A stretch of 12,830 nt of DNA from Desulfobacca acetoxidans (GTDB lineage Bacteria > Desulfobacterota > Desulfobaccia > Desulfobaccales > 0-14-0-80-60-11): contig DZCR01000095.1 of NCBI GenBank assembly GCA_022736495.1, forward strand, positions 1 to 12,830, in the 5' to 3' direction. Positions 5,265 through 12,654 of the stretch are shown in pieces; within the stretch, counting starts at the first letter, position 1; every line of letters starts with the position of its first letter. The translations under genes were made by a program, and so were the position numbers. The notes below the pieces were generated by a model. The model saw only the letters and a list, made by a program, of their open reading frames with translations, was not told the DNA's origin and made no database searches.

Positions 5265-6095
5265 TCATTGTTCTAGACTCTGATACGCCGCCCGTGCCAT
5301 GACCTGCAAAGGCGCCACCTGCCCGGTCCATAATTCAAACTGCACGGTGGCCTGGTGGATAAGCATCTGTAAGCCGTCGATGGTAACCGCCCCCCGGGTC
5401 TGGGCTTCTTTCAGCAGCCGGGTTTGCAAAGGCTGATACACGATGTCCATGACGACCTGGAAGCGGGACAAAAGCTCCGGGTTGATGGGAATCCCGTCGA
5501 TATCCGGGGCCATGCCTACCGGGGTGGCGTTCACCAGGACGGTGGCAGGGCAATCTCCCACGGCGTTCAGGGGAACAGCTTCGCCACCCAGGTCTTTGAC
5601 TAACGCGATGGCGCGGGCTTGGTCCACATCCGTCAGGGTGACCCGGCCGCCTTCGTTAATAATGCCGAAGGCGATGGCCCGGGAGGCTCCTCCGGCCCCC
5701 AGGATGAGAACGTGCTGGCCTTTTAGATTGATCTTGGCCTGTAAAGCGGTCACCGCTCCCAGGCAGTCGGTATTATAGCCGGTGAGGCGGCCGTCCCGGT
5801 TGACTATGGTGTTCACCGCGCCGATCTCGACGGCCTGGGGGTCCAAGGCATCGATCAGGGGGATGACTTCTTCCTTGAAGGGGATGGTGACGCTCACCCC
5901 GCCGATGGCCAGGCCCCTTAAGCCCGCCACGGCCTGGGGCAGGTCCGTCACTGGAAAGGCCACGTAGACCGCGTTGAGGCCCAGGTGCCGAAACGCGGCG
6001 TTGTGCATGGCCGGGCTCAGGGAATGAGTCACGGGGCGGCCTAGAATGCCGAAGATTTTTGTATGGCCGTTGATATTTATGAAGTTATCAGCCAT
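5265..6095 (-). CDS. aroE: Shikimate dehydrogenase
   Basis: This 276-residue enzyme reduces 3-dehydroshikimate to shikimate in the cytoplasm. The N-terminal substrate domain shows SLSP (25-28), the catalytic K74 in VTIPFKEE, N95 in GAVNT and D110 in YNTDCLG. The Rossmann domain has GAGGASRA (133-140) and NATPVGM further on. The segment after the second beta strand reads LTDVDQAR (154-161), whereas NADP-specific AroE proteins carry a basic NRTxxR patch; the acidic D156/D158 suggests use of NAD. It starts at ATG 6095 with only a weak ribosome site, and an insertion-sequence remnant begins about 40 bp upstream, so its original promoter may have been displaced. It is followed on the same strand by aroA. 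Confidence 0.96.
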   Translation of the reverse strand: MADNFININGHTKIFGILGRPVTHSLSPAMHNAAFRHLGLNAVYVAFPVTDLPQAVAGLRGLAIGGVSVTIPFKEEVIPLIDALDPQAVEIGAVNTIVNRDGRLTGYNTDCLGAVTALQAKINLKGQHVLILGAGGASRAIAFGIINEGGRVTLTDVDQARAIALVKDLGGEAVPLNAVGDCPATVLVNATPVGMAPDIDGIPINPELLSRFQVVMDIVYQPLQTRLLKEAQTRGAVTIDGLQMLIHQATVQFELWTGQVAPLQVMARAAYQSLEQ

Positions 6096-6168
6096 GAGAG
6101 ATCAGCTTTCAGCAATGAGCAGTTACCAGACAGTGTACCGCACCCGGTTTCCTGGCCACAAGTTTTTA

Positions 6169-6666
6169 TTAAGCCGCTCGAGCGAGTGAGGCTTGGGCGA
6201 GCCACTGGGCTCTGGCTTGCCAGGGGCTTTTGAAGCCGTTTTTCTCCACCAGCCACTCGCGGTTGTATGTGTCCACAAAATGCCTGACCGCCTGCCACAC
6301 CTCCTGACGATTCTGGAACACCCGGCCATAGATGACTTGCTCCTTGAGGGTCCGGATGAAGCGTTCCGCCACGCCATCGGTCTGGGGCTGCTCGATAAAG
6401 GCGAAACTGGGGCTGATCCCCCAGTACTTGAGCTGGTTCTGAAAACGATCCGACAGGTATTGGGTGCCGTGGTCCATCCGCAGGGATAGGCCCCGGGCGG
6501 CGTCCACCGCCACCGAACCCGTGGTGGCCACCAGCCCTTGAGAAATGGGATCCAGGGCCGCAAACCGGGTTGCTTGTTTGCAAACGTGCCAGCCCACACA
6601 CTCAGCGTCCCAGTGCTCTACAGCCACGTAGGGTCTGGCGGTGGCGGCGGAGGCCGTGCAGCTCAT
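6169..6666 (-). pseudogene. IS3-family transposase OrfB, internally deleted
   Basis: The frame starts at ATG 6666 behind a perfect GGAGG and encodes 165 residues. The first 13 (MSCTASAATARPY) look like the normal N-terminus of this OrfB type, but the sequence then jumps to VAVEHWDAECVGWHV, which in full proteins follows the first catalytic Asp. The helix-turn-helix and the first D of the DDE triad are therefore missing, with the junction near 6627. The remainder is well preserved: D65 in RMDHGTQYLSD and E101 in GVAERF, 35 residues apart as in the DD(35)E integrase fold, then NRE-type C-terminal sequence. The deletion is inferred from recalled family sequence; roughly 130-150 residues are absent. 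It cannot catalyse transposition. Confidence 0.85.
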
Positions 6667-6703
6667 TTCCTCGACCTCCTTTTGGCTAAAGGGCCGGGGC
6701 GCC

Positions 6704-7096
6704 TCACCCGGGCCCACAACAACTCGTTTCCATGGTCAGTTCACCGAGGTGCTTCATGGCGTTGTCCAACTCGCCCTTGAGAGGGTCGCCGTTTCTGGTC
6801 TTGAGGGCCTCCTCCATGCCTGACAGGGCGGTGTCTCGCCACTTCTCCAGGCGGTAAAGCTCCAGGCCCAACTCACGGGAGAGAAGCTCCGTGGGCTCGC
6901 CTCGAAGGATGCGCAGCACCACCTCTCGTTTCCTGGGCGCCGTCCAACGTTGGCCCTGGGCCAATGGCCCCTCACCTCCCTGCCCAGTGGGGACTCCGGT
7001 CGGCCTACGGCCTCCCTCCGTCCCCACTGGGCCCACCTCACCCCGACCTTGGTCACTCTCCCGATCCTTTGCCATTTCCCGGTTCTCCTTGGTCAC
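6704..7096 (-). pseudogene. IS3-family OrfA, frameshifted near its end
   Basis: OrfA carries the helix-turn-helix DNA-binding half of IS3 transposases: RWTAPRKREVVLRILRGEP (about 50-68) followed by LSRELGLELYRLEKWRD. It ends in GELTMETSCCGPG, whereas the family has GELTMENELL. Adding one A to the AAA at about 6728-6732 restores MENELLWARVRRPGPLAKRR and moves the stop to TGA at 6665-6663, overlapping the orfB ATG as ATGA. This restored overlap is strong evidence for a single-base deletion. GTG 7096 follows GGAGG at seven bases; ATG 7075, behind AAGGAG, is also possible. Confidence 0.8.
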
Positions 7097-7254: not shown

Positions 7255-8139
7255 ATGGACACCGCGCTTAATCAATTTTATCAGCATCTCGGGGTGGAGC
7301 GGGGCCTGGCTCCCTTGACCCTGGCGGCCTATGCCCGGGACCTCCAGGATTTCTGGGGTTTTCTTGCGGCTCAGGACCGGACCGACTGGGCCGCGGTGGA
7401 GCTTGCCGACTTCCAAGCCTATTTTGCCGCGCTGGCAGCCCGGGGGTTGTCGGCCAGGAGCCGCGCCCGCCGGTTGTCGGCGTTGCGGCAATTCTTTCGC
7501 TTCCTCCAGCGCGAGGCGGAGGTTAGCGCCAATCCCGTGGAGCTGCTGGATTCGCCCCGTCTGCCGCAGCGGCTGCCCCAGGTTATGGGGGAGGCGGACG
7601 TGGCGGCGCTCCTGGCCGCCCCGGACCCCGGCACTCCCGGAGGACTGCGGGACCAGGCGCTCCTGGAGGTGCTCTATGCCACGGGTCTCAGGGTCTCGGA
7701 GCTGGTGGGCCTGACCTTCAAGCAATTGGACCTGCGGCGCGGCGTGGTGCGCCCCCTGGGCAAAGGCGCCAAAGAGCGGGTGGTGCCCATGGTTCCTCTG
7801 GCCGTGGAAAAACTGCAGATCTACCTAAAAGAAGCACGGCCCCGGCTGCTGCGAGGCCGGGAGAGCCCTTTTGTGTTCGTTAATCATCGCGGGGGCCGGC
7901 TCTCCCGCCAGGGGTTTTGGAAACTCTTGAAACAATACGCCCTCAAGGCCGGGATCAAGACCCTGAGCCCTCACACCCTGCGGCATTCCTTCGCCACCCA
8001 CCTGTTGTCCCGGGGGGCCAATTTGCGGGTCCTGCAAATGCTCTTGGGCCATGCCGACCTGGCCACCACCCAGATTTACACCCATCTGGACGCCGTGCGC
8101 CTCAAACAGGTGCACAAAAAATCCCATCCCCGCCCATGA
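7255..8139 (+). CDS. xerD: Tyrosine recombinase XerD (chromosome dimer resolution)
   Basis: This 294-residue protein has the standard Xer size and layout: a core-binding domain (about 1-95) and a catalytic domain (about 108-285). Active-site residues are R146 (ATGLRVSEL), K170 (GKGAKERVVP), H240-x-x-R243 (SPHTLRHSFATHLL), H266 (LLGHAD) and the nucleophile Y275 (TQIYTHLD). The C-terminal VRLKQVHKKSHPR matches the XerD tail better than XerC. XerC/D act at dif near the replication terminus to separate chromosome dimers, together with FtsK. The open frame extends upstream to 6964, but that part is spacer and IS sequence, so ATG 7255 is taken although its ribosome site is weak. Its TGA overlaps the next gene's ATG, indicating translational coupling. 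Confidence 0.95.
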   Translation: MDTALNQFYQHLGVERGLAPLTLAAYARDLQDFWGFLAAQDRTDWAAVELADFQAYFAALAARGLSARSRARRLSALRQFFRFLQREAEVSANPVELLDSPRLPQRLPQVMGEADVAALLAAPDPGTPGGLRDQALLEVLYATGLRVSELVGLTFKQLDLRRGVVRPLGKGAKERVVPMVPLAVEKLQIYLKEARPRLLRGRESPFVFVNHRGGRLSRQGFWKLLKQYALKAGIKTLSPHTLRHSFATHLLSRGANLRVLQMLLGHADLATTQIYTHLDAVRLKQVHKKSHPRP

Positions 8140-10799
8140 CCAACCGGAACCACCGGAACGGCCAAACCGGGCCTGCGCCGCCTCGCACTCTGGAGGTGAT
8201 TACCACCCACCTCAACGCCGACTTCGACGCCATGGCCTCCATGGTGGCGGCTAAAAAGCTCTATCCTGAGGCGCTCCTGGTCTTTCCGGGCTCCCAAGAG
8301 CGCAATCTCCGGGATTTTTTCATCCGCTCCAGCTTTTATTTCGTGGATTTTACCCGGATCAAGCAGGTGCCGATGGAAGAGATCAAACGTCTCATCCTGG
8401 TGGACACCCGCCAGTCTTCCCGCATCGGCAAATTCGCCGAAGTGGCCGCCAGCCGCGAGGTGGACATTCACATCTACGATCACCACCCGGATACCGACGA
8501 AGACGTGCACGGCAGCCTGGAAGTGGTGGAGATGCTGGGGTCCACCACCGCCATCCTCACCCGCATTATCAAGGAACGGGGGATTGCCCTGGCGCCGCCG
8601 GAGGCCACCGTCATGGCCCTGGGGCTGTTTGAGGATACGGGCTCCTTTACCTTTACATCCACCACCCCCCAGGATTTTGAAGCAGGCGCCTTTCTCCTGA
8701 GCCAGGGAGCCGATCTCAACGTGGTCTCCGAGATCATCACCCGGGAGCTTAACGCCGAACAGGTGGCCCTCTTGAACGACCTTTTGGAACACTCCACCAG
8801 CTTCCATGTGGGGGGCCTCGAAGTGGTCCTGGCCCGCACCACCGCCCCGGAATACGTGCCGGATTTCGCAGTGGTGGCCCACCGCCTCATGGATGTGGAG
8901 AATATCCAGGTCCTCTTTGCCTTGGCCCAGATGGAGGACCGGGTCTTCGTGGTGGGGAGGAGCCGCCTGCCGGAAGTGGATGTGGCTGAGATTCTTTCCG
9001 ATTTGGGGGGCGGGGGGCATAGCTATGCCGCCTCCGCCGCCATCAAAGACCAGCCCCTGGCCCAGGTGGAGGAAAAATTGCGCCAGGTTCTCCAGGCCCG
9101 AATTCATCCCCGGCGCCTGGCCCGGGAAATTATGTCTTTCCCGGTCAAGTCCATAACCCCCGAGGTCACCCTGGAGGAGGCGGAAGTCATCCTCAACCGT
9201 TACAACATCAATGCTTTGCCGGTGCTGGCCGACGGCAAGCTCCTGGGCCTAATCAACCGGCAAACCGTGGAAAAGGGGATTTTCCACGGCCTGAGGCGTC
9301 ATCCGGTGAAAGACTATATGAACACCGAGGTGGCCACCGTGGACCCTGACGCCTCCATCGCGGAAATTCGGGACCGCTTGGTGATTAATAAACAACGCGT
9401 CCTGCCCGTGGTGGAAAACGGCAAAGTCATCGGTCTGGTCAGCCGCACCGATCTCCTCCACCTGCTCTTTGCCGAGCACGACGAGGCCCAGTGGTCCCAA
9501 CCGCTCCGCACCAAGAACATCGAATCCCTCATGCGGGAGCGTCTCCCTAAAGACATCCTGGAGATTTTAAAACAGGTGGGGCTGGCGGCGGCGTCGCTAA
9601 AGTTCAGCGCCTACGTGGTGGGTGGCTTCGTTCGGGACTTGCTGCTCAAACATGAAAACCTGGATATCGATATCGTCATTGAAGGGGACGCCATTGTGTT
9701 CGCCCGGCGTTTTGCGGCGCAATTCGGCGCCAGGTCCCGGGAGTTCCAGAAATTCAAAACTGCGGTGATCATTTTTCCGGGCGGCTTTAAGATTGACGTG
9801 GCCACAGCCCGGACCGAATATTACGAGGCGCCGGGGGCGCTGCCCATCGTGGAATATAGCTCCATCAAGATGGACCTCTACCGCCGGGACTTTACCATCA
9901 ATACCCTGGCCCTGAAGCTCAACCCCGGCGAGTTCGGCACCCTGCTGGATTTTTTCGGGGCCCAGCGGGATTTGAAAGAAGGCCGCATCAGCCTGCTCCA
10001 TAACCTGAGTTTCGTTGAAGATCCCACCCGGGTCTTCCGGGCCATCCGTTTTGAGCAGCGCTTCAAGTTTCGCATCACCAAGCTGGCCGCCAACCTCATC
10101 AACAATGCAGTCAAGAATAACTTTTTTGACCGCCTCTCGGGCGCCCGCCTTTTCGGGGAACTGCGGCTCATTCTCCAGGAGGACAACCCCATTCCGGCCA
10201 TCGCGCGCCTGGCGGAGCTTAATCTCCTGGTCGCCGTCCACCCCCGTCTGGTATTCGACGAGGGCACCCGCCGCCTGCTGGAGCAGGTGCTGGCGGTCCT
10301 CTCCTGGTATGACCTGCTCTACCTGGGTGACCGCTACAAACGGTGGTTGGTCTATTTCCTGGGATTGGTGGACCATCTGAGTTTAGTGGAACTGGAGGAG
10401 ATGCTGGGCCGCTTTAACCTGCCTCCCAAACAGGCCAGCACCATCAGCAAGGGCAAGACGGCGGCTGAGGAGGTCCTGCTCAGACTGTTCCGGTATGGGG
10501 AGCCGACCCGCCCCCAGATTTATCATCTTTTGGCTCCGCTGGAAACGGAGTTCATCCTTTATATGATGGCCAAGTCACGCCACGAGGGTTCCCGCAAGGC
10601 CATCTCGCTCTATTTCACTCACCTCAAGCATCTCAATCCCGAACTCAAGGGGCGGGACCTGGTGGCTATGGGCTATCAACCCGGACCCCTCATCAAAGAG
10701 ATGCTGGACCGCCTCCTGGAAGCCCGCCTCAACGAGAAAGTCAAAAGCCGCAGCCAGGAAAAGGACTTCATCCGCCGCGCCTTCGGCCCGCCTTCATAA
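8136..10799 (+). CDS. DHH-DHHA1-CBS-CBS-tRNA nucleotidyltransferase/poly(A) polymerase fusion
   Basis: This 887-residue protein joins three functional units. Residues 18-320 are a DHH/DHHA1 phosphoesterase: NADFDA (D29, D31), LVDTRQ (D90), YDHHPD (D115-H116-H117), LFEDTGSF (D167) and GGGGH (291-295), with all metal ligands intact. Two CBS domains follow (about 331-388 and 391-447), probable adenine-nucleotide sensors. Residues 488-887 are a class II nucleotidyltransferase: YVVGGFVRD (493-501), catalytic D510 and D512 (LDIDIVIEGD), RRDFTIN (583-589), EDPTRVFRAIRFE (628-640) and GARLFGELRLIL (669-680). Related long proteins in Aquifex and Deltaproteobacteria act on tRNA 3' ends, often as A-adding enzymes paired with a separate CC-adding enzyme; whether this one adds A, CCA or poly(A) cannot be read from sequence. 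ATG 8136 overlaps the xerD stop (ATGA). Confidence 0.93.
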   Translation: MTNRNHRNGQTGPAPPRTLEVITTHLNADFDAMASMVAAKKLYPEALLVFPGSQERNLRDFFIRSSFYFVDFTRIKQVPMEEIKRLILVDTRQSSRIGKFAEVAASREVDIHIYDHHPDTDEDVHGSLEVVEMLGSTTAILTRIIKERGIALAPPEATVMALGLFEDTGSFTFTSTTPQDFEAGAFLLSQGADLNVVSEIITRELNAEQVALLNDLLEHSTSFHVGGLEVVLARTTAPEYVPDFAVVAHRLMDVENIQVLFALAQMEDRVFVVGRSRLPEVDVAEILSDLGGGGHSYAASAAIKDQPLAQVEEKLRQVLQARIHPRRLAREIMSFPVKSITPEVTLEEAEVILNRYNINALPVLADGKLLGLINRQTVEKGIFHGLRRHPVKDYMNTEVATVDPDASIAEIRDRLVINKQRVLPVVENGKVIGLVSRTDLLHLLFAEHDEAQWSQPLRTKNIESLMRERLPKDILEILKQVGLAAASLKFSAYVVGGFVRDLLLKHENLDIDIVIEGDAIVFARRFAAQFGARSREFQKFKTAVIIFPGGFKIDVATARTEYYEAPGALPIVEYSSIKMDLYRRDFTINTLALKLNPGEFGTLLDFFGAQRDLKEGRISLLHNLSFVEDPTRVFRAIRFEQRFKFRITKLAANLINNAVKNNFFDRLSGARLFGELRLILQEDNPIPAIARLAELNLLVAVHPRLVFDEGTRRLLEQVLAVLSWYDLLYLGDRYKRWLVYFLGLVDHLSLVELEEMLGRFNLPPKQASTISKGKTAAEEVLLRLFRYGEPTRPQIYHLLAPLETEFILYMMAKSRHEGSRKAISLYFTHLKHLNPELKGRDLVAMGYQPGPLIKEMLDRLLEARLNEKVKSRSQEKDFIRRAFGPPS

Positions 10800-11109: not shown

Positions 11110-12654
11110 ATGGCCAAAGCTTACGTTCGGACCCGGGAGTTCCTCACTGCCCGACTCCACTTCCTCATCAACACGCCTGAGGTCTTGCGCTTGGTGAACG
11201 ATATCACCACCTGCACCATCGACTGGTTGGACAGCCCCGACCTGGAAGCCCTGGAGGCCTCCGGTGGCCGGGAACTCTTTCCCTGCTTTACTACCTATCT
11301 CCAGCGCCACCTTATGGAAGTCCGGGGCGTCATTTATCCCAACCTGACGGAAAACGACCAGGTCATTTATCACGTCATTCGGCTGGAATTGGCGGATTTC
11401 CAGTTTTTTTTCCGCCTGCGCACCACCCAAACCGCCTTCTTGCTCTCTCCGTTTCACTGCCGCTTCCTCAGCATGCTCTTCGGGCGGCTGGTGATCATGC
11501 ACCTGTCGTTATCGGTGAGCGAAGAAGAAGGCATGTACCCCTTCACCCCCTACTCCCTGGAAGAACAGGTGGTAGCCGATTATCTCCAGAGTCTGACCCA
11601 GGCGCCCTGCGCGACCATCAAGCTGGACTCCCAGGACAACCCTTATATCGGCTCCATGCTCTACACCGCCGCCGACCTGCGCCGGTGCGCCATGCTCGAT
11701 AAAGGGCGGGGGGAAGCCATCATCCGGGCCTGGCGCCTCTTCAAGCGTCTCCTCTATTATTCGGTGGAAGGCGAGCGCCTGTATACCGGATTTGCCATGC
11801 TCACCAACTACCGCCCTCTGGATTACTACCGGCAACGCTGGCCCTCCCTCCTCTGGTTTCACGAAGCCAACTTTATCTCCCTGGACCAGGGGTTGCAGGG
11901 TCTCCGCCAATTTCTCCTCAATGCCGATGGGCGCTCCACCTTCCTGGCCATGTATGGCGGTCAGATCGTGGGCCTTCTTAAGCACGTCCAGGGTACGCAG
12001 CGACAGCTTGCCACCGCCGCATCCTGGCGCGCAATTTTGCCTCTGGCCAGCATCTCCAGCCGGGGCCGAATCAGCTTTTGGATAGCCTTGAAGGGTCGCA
12101 AGAACCGCCGTATCCGCCTCTCCGTCCTGGAATACCGCCAGGGCCACCTCCATATCCCCCTGTTCCAGGACTTTTTCTGGCAAGAGCTGGAGCGCCAGTT
12201 GCAGGAGGCCTGTCCCCACTGCCACATTGCCGGGGCCCTGCCCCGTTTCAAGACGCTGCTGGAGTTGGTGCGGAGGAGCGGCCACGGCGCCATCTTTCTC
12301 CTGGGCCTCACCCAGGCCCAACTCGATGACCCCAACACTCCCATCGAAAACCAGGTGAGTTTGGCGACCCCCGTGCCCATAGACGAACCGTGGATTCAAC
12401 ACCTGCAGGGCCTGGCCAAGTCCGACGGCGCCGTGATCTGCAACGACCGGTTGGAAGTTTGCCAATTCCGAGCTCGCCTGAAACCCGCCAACATCTGCCT
12501 GATCCCGGACCAGGACGACTTGGGCGGCGGCATGCGTCACCAGGTCACCCGGGAATTCTCGGCCTACGCCCCGCGCGTTTTAGGCCTCTGCGTCTCCCAA
12601 GACAGCTACATCTCCCTCTATCGCGGCGGTAAACTGATTACCCGGCTGTACTGA
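11110..12654 (+). CDS. DAC (DisA_N)-like protein with N-terminal sensor-like region
   Basis: The C-terminal 135 residues align by eye with diadenylate cyclase domains such as that of DisA. In 514-residue numbering, LAKSDGAVI (436-444) carries the D-G-A motif (439-441) and GMRHQ (474-478) stands where cyclases have GTRHR; VSQDSYISLYRGGKL (495-509) matches the terminal strands. DAC enzymes make cyclic di-AMP from two ATP. D-G-A and the R-H pair are kept, but Thr and the last Arg are replaced by Met and Gln, so activity or product may differ. Residues 1-about 275 are mixed helical, lack a signal peptide or membrane segment and match nothing I can name; N-terminal sensor domains attached to DAC domains are known. 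ATG 11110 is preferred over an in-frame TTG at 11083. The gene follows the nucleotidyltransferase fusion by 310 bp. Confidence 0.7.
   Translation: MAKAYVRTREFLTARLHFLINTPEVLRLVNDITTCTIDWLDSPDLEALEASGGRELFPCFTTYLQRHLMEVRGVIYPNLTENDQVIYHVIRLELADFQFFFRLRTTQTAFLLSPFHCRFLSMLFGRLVIMHLSLSVSEEEGMYPFTPYSLEEQVVADYLQSLTQAPCATIKLDSQDNPYIGSMLYTAADLRRCAMLDKGRGEAIIRAWRLFKRLLYYSVEGERLYTGFAMLTNYRPLDYYRQRWPSLLWFHEANFISLDQGLQGLRQFLLNADGRSTFLAMYGGQIVGLLKHVQGTQRQLATAASWRAILPLASISSRGRISFWIALKGRKNRRIRLSVLEYRQGHLHIPLFQDFFWQELERQLQEACPHCHIAGALPRFKTLLELVRRSGHGAIFLLGLTQAQLDDPNTPIENQVSLATPVPIDEPWIQHLQGLAKSDGAVICNDRLEVCQFRARLKPANICLIPDQDDLGGGMRHQVTREFSAYAPRVLGLCVSQDSYISLYRGGKLITRLY

Follow-up and report, generated by a model that had tools for sequence, protein, structure and literature searches.

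Does a diadenylate cyclase (DAC) domain in which the expected GTRHR motif reads GMRHQ still make cyclic di-AMP (c-di-AMP), or has it been put to another use? The question is raised by a gene at positions 11110..12654 (+) of a 12,830-nucleotide stretch of DNA from Desulfobacca acetoxidans (contig DZCR01000095.1, hereafter the window), one open frame of 514 codons, stop codon included in the coordinates, encoding a 514-residue protein with a front half and a C-terminal DAC domain. The choice of start codon is backed by M1, which is invariant in the alignment of relatives. The product is a true, if divergent, relative of the c-di-AMP synthases, joined to a front half that is strongly conserved. 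The function we favour, on which we would stake no more than an even chance, is that of a soluble, sensor-gated RHQ/SQD-type protein of the DAC superfamily, most likely making c-di-AMP or a close relative of it.

The DAC domain occupies residues 365-514 (12202..12651, +), as delimited by profile matches and the predicted fold. The PF02457 profile scores 18.4 bits against the window protein, below the curated cut-off of 27 bits, and the protein is predicted to adopt the DAC (DisA_N) fold, both consistent with the DAC-like nature proposed in a preliminary description of this DNA, whose refutation test the protein withstood, although its profile match lies under the threshold. PF02457 is matched by all 18 members of the family that were scanned (best E 2.2e-4), and in one comparison a single genome copy (L031) was marked as over the cut-off, at 26.7 bits, or 27 with its in-frame neighbours, the five other family copies compared falling below it. 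The precomputed PF02457 label is present on some of the listed relatives and absent from most.

Two homology searches returned 251 and 264 related proteins, and the 120 listed from each gave 172 different relatives, which together with the window protein form a motif alignment of 173 rows. Among the rows that cover each motif, D439, G440, and A441 of the DGA motif (residues 439-441, 12424..12432, +) are constant in 172 of 172. The GMRHQ sequence (residues 474-478, 12529..12543, +), where GTRHR is expected, proved to be a real feature of the protein, and the third residue of its RHR-equivalent is Gln in 171 of 171. Likewise SQD (residues 496-498, 12595..12603, +), where SEE is expected, reads S(Q/T/M)D in 171 of 171, with S496 and D498 invariant. 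The protein thereby retains DGA and has neither the GxRHRxA nor the (V/I)SEE sequence of a canonical diadenylate cyclase. To the question of whether GMRHQ is fixed in orthologs the answer is divided: RHQ is fixed and the residue preceding it is not, being M in 122 rows, T in 26, and I in 23, with GTRHQ found in the deepest members read (~50% identical: L018, L019, and L049). Nine conventional DACs of the same genomes (L022-L030) were also inspected, and the motif was located by pattern in eight, reading GTRHR in each; the SEE position is SET in seven of the eight (L022, L024-L029) and SEE in one, making SEE a loose criterion for a canonical DAC. Those seven proteins, otherwise conventional, accordingly have Thr where the textbook motif has its metal-binding Glu.

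The unusual active-site motif seems to have been retained across a larger protein group rather than to reflect decay. When 395 sampled genomes of one phylum (a sample centred on the L011 genome) were searched with a profile of the DAC part, four places outside the family were matched: two proteins of DACND-DACNH-DAC architecture (L096 and L097), one DACNV-DAC protein bearing GTRHQ and SQDG (L098), and a frame of 110 residues (L099). A search for DACNV proteins with seven queries yielded 733 relatives, of which the best-scoring 120, not a random sample, were examined. Of these, 119 cover the motif, which reads RHQ in 103, RHN or KHN in eight, RHR in seven, and RHK in one; DGA and the S and D of S-x-D are present in all 119. 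The window protein is not a lone oddity, and the preliminary description overstated the case here, since RHQ is the majority motif of the DACNV-type DACs, a group already named in Pfam.

The DACNV-DAC proteins (PF21751 + PF02457) also have a C-terminal DAC behind an input region, share DGA, RHQ, and S-x-D with the window family, and contain its closest DAC domain by profile (hhalign E 1.3e-16, or 2.3e-13 with only seven sequences). They differ in their PF21751 sensor, which was absent from 18 of 18 window-family members at E up to 5, and in a shorter front half, to which the middle pieces of the window family, compared alone, match no better than hhalign E 0.041. A tree built from 81 DAC domains places each of four groups on one side of a branch, with modest support for DACNV (83/80); it joins the window family to DACNV, a grouping recovered in 931 of 1000 bootstrap trees and given a value of 71 by the SH-like approximate likelihood-ratio test (SH-aLRT). 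Two DACNV relatives of 563 residues (P0260 and P0264) have a helix-turn-helix domain of the XRE type and are labeled as transcriptional regulators, with PF02457 missing from their precomputed domain lists; a DACNV-type sensor with such a domain may act directly on DNA.

Other DAC proteins are more distant. The DACND-DACNH-DAC proteins (PF21749 and PF21750), to which the DS-2 DAC linked to the anti-phage system CBASS probably belongs, likewise have a divergent C-terminal DAC behind a sensor half. They match the window family colinearly over residues 242-512 (hhalign E 8.6e-8, 15 proteins), or E 9.3e-10 for the DAC domain. However, neither the DACND nor the DACNH domain has a match in the 18 window-family members, the middle piece of the family alone reaching only E 0.017-0.057 against DACNH, and although S-x-D is present, RHR is replaced by ARYN or ARFN in all 15 proteins read (L096, L097, and L101-L113), a third class of active site that goes with a sensor type of its own. 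DisA has an N-terminal DAC followed by a linker and a helix-hairpin-helix (HhH) DNA-binding domain, whereas the DAC of the window family forms the last 150 residues, has RHQ in place of RHR, and is accompanied by no HhH match in Pfam; a sample of 198 genomes from the phylum contained no DisA above the cut-off. The DAC is N-terminal in Mycobacterium tuberculosis DacA as well, according to excerpts of PMC3328451. CdaA and other conventional DACs have GTRHR with SEE or SET and only a weak profile match to the window family (E 4.2e-4), and no N-terminal Pfam domain of the CdaA type was found in the 18 members, whose residues 1-142 are predicted to be alpha/beta (a membrane-helix predictor was not run).

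The front half was described beforehand as not assignable to a known input domain, and a Pfam scan of the 18 members bears this out, giving nothing convincing and only chance-level matches in single members. Residues 10-142 (11137..11535, +) are predicted to form one alpha/beta domain, with weak likeness to GAF/PHY or roadblock domains. The middle module, residues 148-352 (11551..12165, +), falls in no Pfam family and is better conserved than any other part of the protein: in 36 diverse rows mean column entropy is 0.83 for residues 148-295 and 0.81 for residues 296-352, vs. 1.11 for the DAC domain and 1.57 for the N-terminal part. Columns at least 98% conserved number 37 of 148 and 17 of 57 in these two segments of the module, vs. 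25 of 150 for the DAC domain and 17 of 147 for the N-terminal part. The whole-length hhalign match to DACNV-DAC spans residues 148-505 (E 6e-14) and the front pieces alone are not significant, so that the two protein types are alike in arrangement and their front halves are not demonstrably related.

Organisms named for the listed relatives are Desulfobaccales, Thermodesulfobacteriota, Deltaproteobacteria, and, once, Desulfobacca acetoxidans; the 21 loci collected are titled Deltaproteobacteria, Desulfobaccales, Desulfobacca, Syntrophobacterales, or Syntrophales, with one "uncultured bacterium." The full-length profile matched 15 of the 395 genomes, and none of its 16 matches contains an internal stop codon, although that in L051 spans positions 13-295 only. 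All 15 genomes also have a DAC match (E 1.4e-38 or better). In nine of nine genomes examined for this, the RHQ protein is accompanied by a match to a conventional DAC at E 1.4e-38 or better and by one at E 1.2e-24 or better to 7TM-HD, a domain of the c-di-AMP phosphodiesterase PgpH. From this domain content c-di-AMP is probably made in these cells without the RHQ protein, and the wholly new signaling system once suggested for this locus is not needed as an explanation. DAC matches as such occur in 354 of the 395 genomes, near universal in the phylum, and Deltaproteobacteria are among the DAC holders in excerpts of a review (PMC10745434).

Neighboring genes were tallied in 19 loci, these being the window and 18 of the 21 loci (L008, L012, and L020 had too little upstream DNA). 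In 14 of them the gene immediately upstream, on the same strand, encodes an amidohydrolase; L001, L004, L018, L019, and the window have no such gene there. The pairing is common without being general, and any functional link is a guess. The best models for two scanned amidohydrolases were N-ethylammeline chlorohydrolase, TRZ/ATZ hydrolase, and 5'-deoxyadenosine deaminase, with MTA/SAH deaminase scoring lower and all below cut-off. Assembly E21_metabat.bin.24 has two copies of the RHQ gene (L003 and L004), one with the amidohydrolase upstream and one without, and because of this difference there may be two paralogous lines.

In the window the gene upstream (7917-10799, +) is instead a DHH-DHHA1-CBS-polyA polymerase fusion resembling A-adding tRNA nucleotidyltransferase (1000.9 bits vs. 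a cut-off of 1440). Its DHH-DHHA1 pair is also found in c-di-AMP phosphodiesterases, inviting a link to the DAC neighbor; among the 21 other loci, whose flanks differ in length, L013 alone showed a relative, and there on the opposite strand. Elsewhere in the window, a tyrosine recombinase gene (470-1363, +; Phage_integrase, E 3e-16) ends ~60 bases from a tRNA gene (1427-1500, -), a layout common where an integrated element ends, and a 182-residue integrase-core (rve) match (6169-6717, -), lying among frames that overlap one another from 6077 to 7096 (-), resembles the relic of an insertion sequence.

The three functions originally put forward for the protein, an unusual c-di-AMP synthase, a cyclase with altered nucleotide choice, and a non-catalytic sensor, are still the live ones. 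Under the first, the DAC domain would bind ATP and a divalent metal via Asp439, Arg476, His477, Ser496, and perhaps Asp498, the conserved front half would bring two DAC copies face to face, the pair would most likely produce c-di-AMP or a close relative, and the front half would switch this activity on or off on receiving a cue. What the analysis shows of this is the predicted fold, the fixed motif, the closeness to DACNV-type DACs, and the place of the protein as a second DAC in its genomes; its solubility, binding of ATP and metal, dimerization, catalysis, and gating are inferred. In CdaA with ATP the third RHR residue is outside the list of contacts, and the contact residues Asp, Arg, His, and Ser are constant in the RHQ family, with the Thr mostly lost. 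Several points weigh against a synthase. The Thr before RHQ is replaced by M or I in 145 of 171 rows, the window protein included. Asp498 is the candidate counterpart of the metal ligand Glu124 of CdaA, an equivalence that is uncertain because the loop is one residue shorter in the RHQ family and hhalign places the family's Asp opposite the T of SEET, one position off Glu124, itself an unsafe guide given that seven of the eight conventional DACs lack a Glu there. Excerpts of two papers report the effect of changing RHR to AAA: M. tuberculosis DacA no longer bound ATP and was inactive (PMC3328451), and M. bovis CdaM likewise lost its activity (PMC13022847); as three residues were changed at once, these mutants are silent on the effect of Gln at the third position. 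Our search of the open-licence literature turned up no report of activity in an RHQ DAC, and with a conventional DAC in the same genomes the second DAC may be a non-enzyme.

Such a non-enzyme could be a receptor whose RHQ domain binds c-di-AMP from the conventional DAC (or ATP) and signals to the front half or a partner, a possibility that we hold tentatively. It would suit the conventional DAC and 7TM-HD protein in nine of nine genomes, the XRE-type domain on two DACNV relatives, the Gln found in every covering row in place of an Arg from a motif that fails as AAA, and a middle module more conserved than the DAC domain, as expected with a fixed partner. A pure receptor, however, has no need to keep Asp439, His477, Ser496, and Asp498 without a seen exception, and the same positions are kept in all 119 covering DACNV rows. 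Because a site kept so strictly in two protein groups fits chemistry better than binding alone, we consider catalysis somewhat more likely. That replacement of Arg by Gln and of Glu by Gln/Asp is the mark of cyclases with another substrate or product, making a different nucleotide messenger, seems to us rather unlikely: the changes are fixed in the window family and prevalent in DACNV-DACs, the DACNH group has its own ARYN/ARFN and S-x-D variant, from which active-site classes appear to track sensor classes, and a gene resembling deaminases of adenosine derivatives adjoins at 14 of the 19 informative loci, yet the changed residues sit at the phosphates or metal in CdaA, giving no reason to expect another base, no alternative product is known to us, and the deaminase-like gene is absent beside five copies, the window's included. 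A paralog decaying toward loss might explain the score below the Pfam cut-off and the conventional DAC alongside, but is highly improbable and already contradicted by conservation, namely the intact reading frame, the motif columns, constant wherever covered across the 172 relatives, and the 16 uninterrupted genome matches. More speculatively, and with considerable doubt, the RHQ/SQD DACs of the window family and DACNV could be, instead of degenerate diadenylate cyclases, a functional class of their own that makes or receives a different nucleotide signal, with sensor-specific active-site signatures. In Desulfobacca-related bacteria residues 148-352 would then be its undescribed sensor module, perhaps reading an adenosine-derived metabolite; such a sensor would explain the often-conserved deaminase-like neighbor.

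What is new here is a lineage-bound DAC protein with its own front half; its altered motif is shared with the named DACNV group, for which we likewise met no report of activity. Should RHQ DACs prove active, the view of RHR as essential would have to be refined, and several hundred proteins with poor annotation would count as candidate nucleotide cyclases. Should they prove to be receptors, they would represent a class of c-di-AMP receptor built from the synthase itself. The family provides a clean test case for deciding this: it belongs to one lineage, its motif is fixed, the conventional DAC beside it can serve as control, and its sensor module has residues that do not vary.
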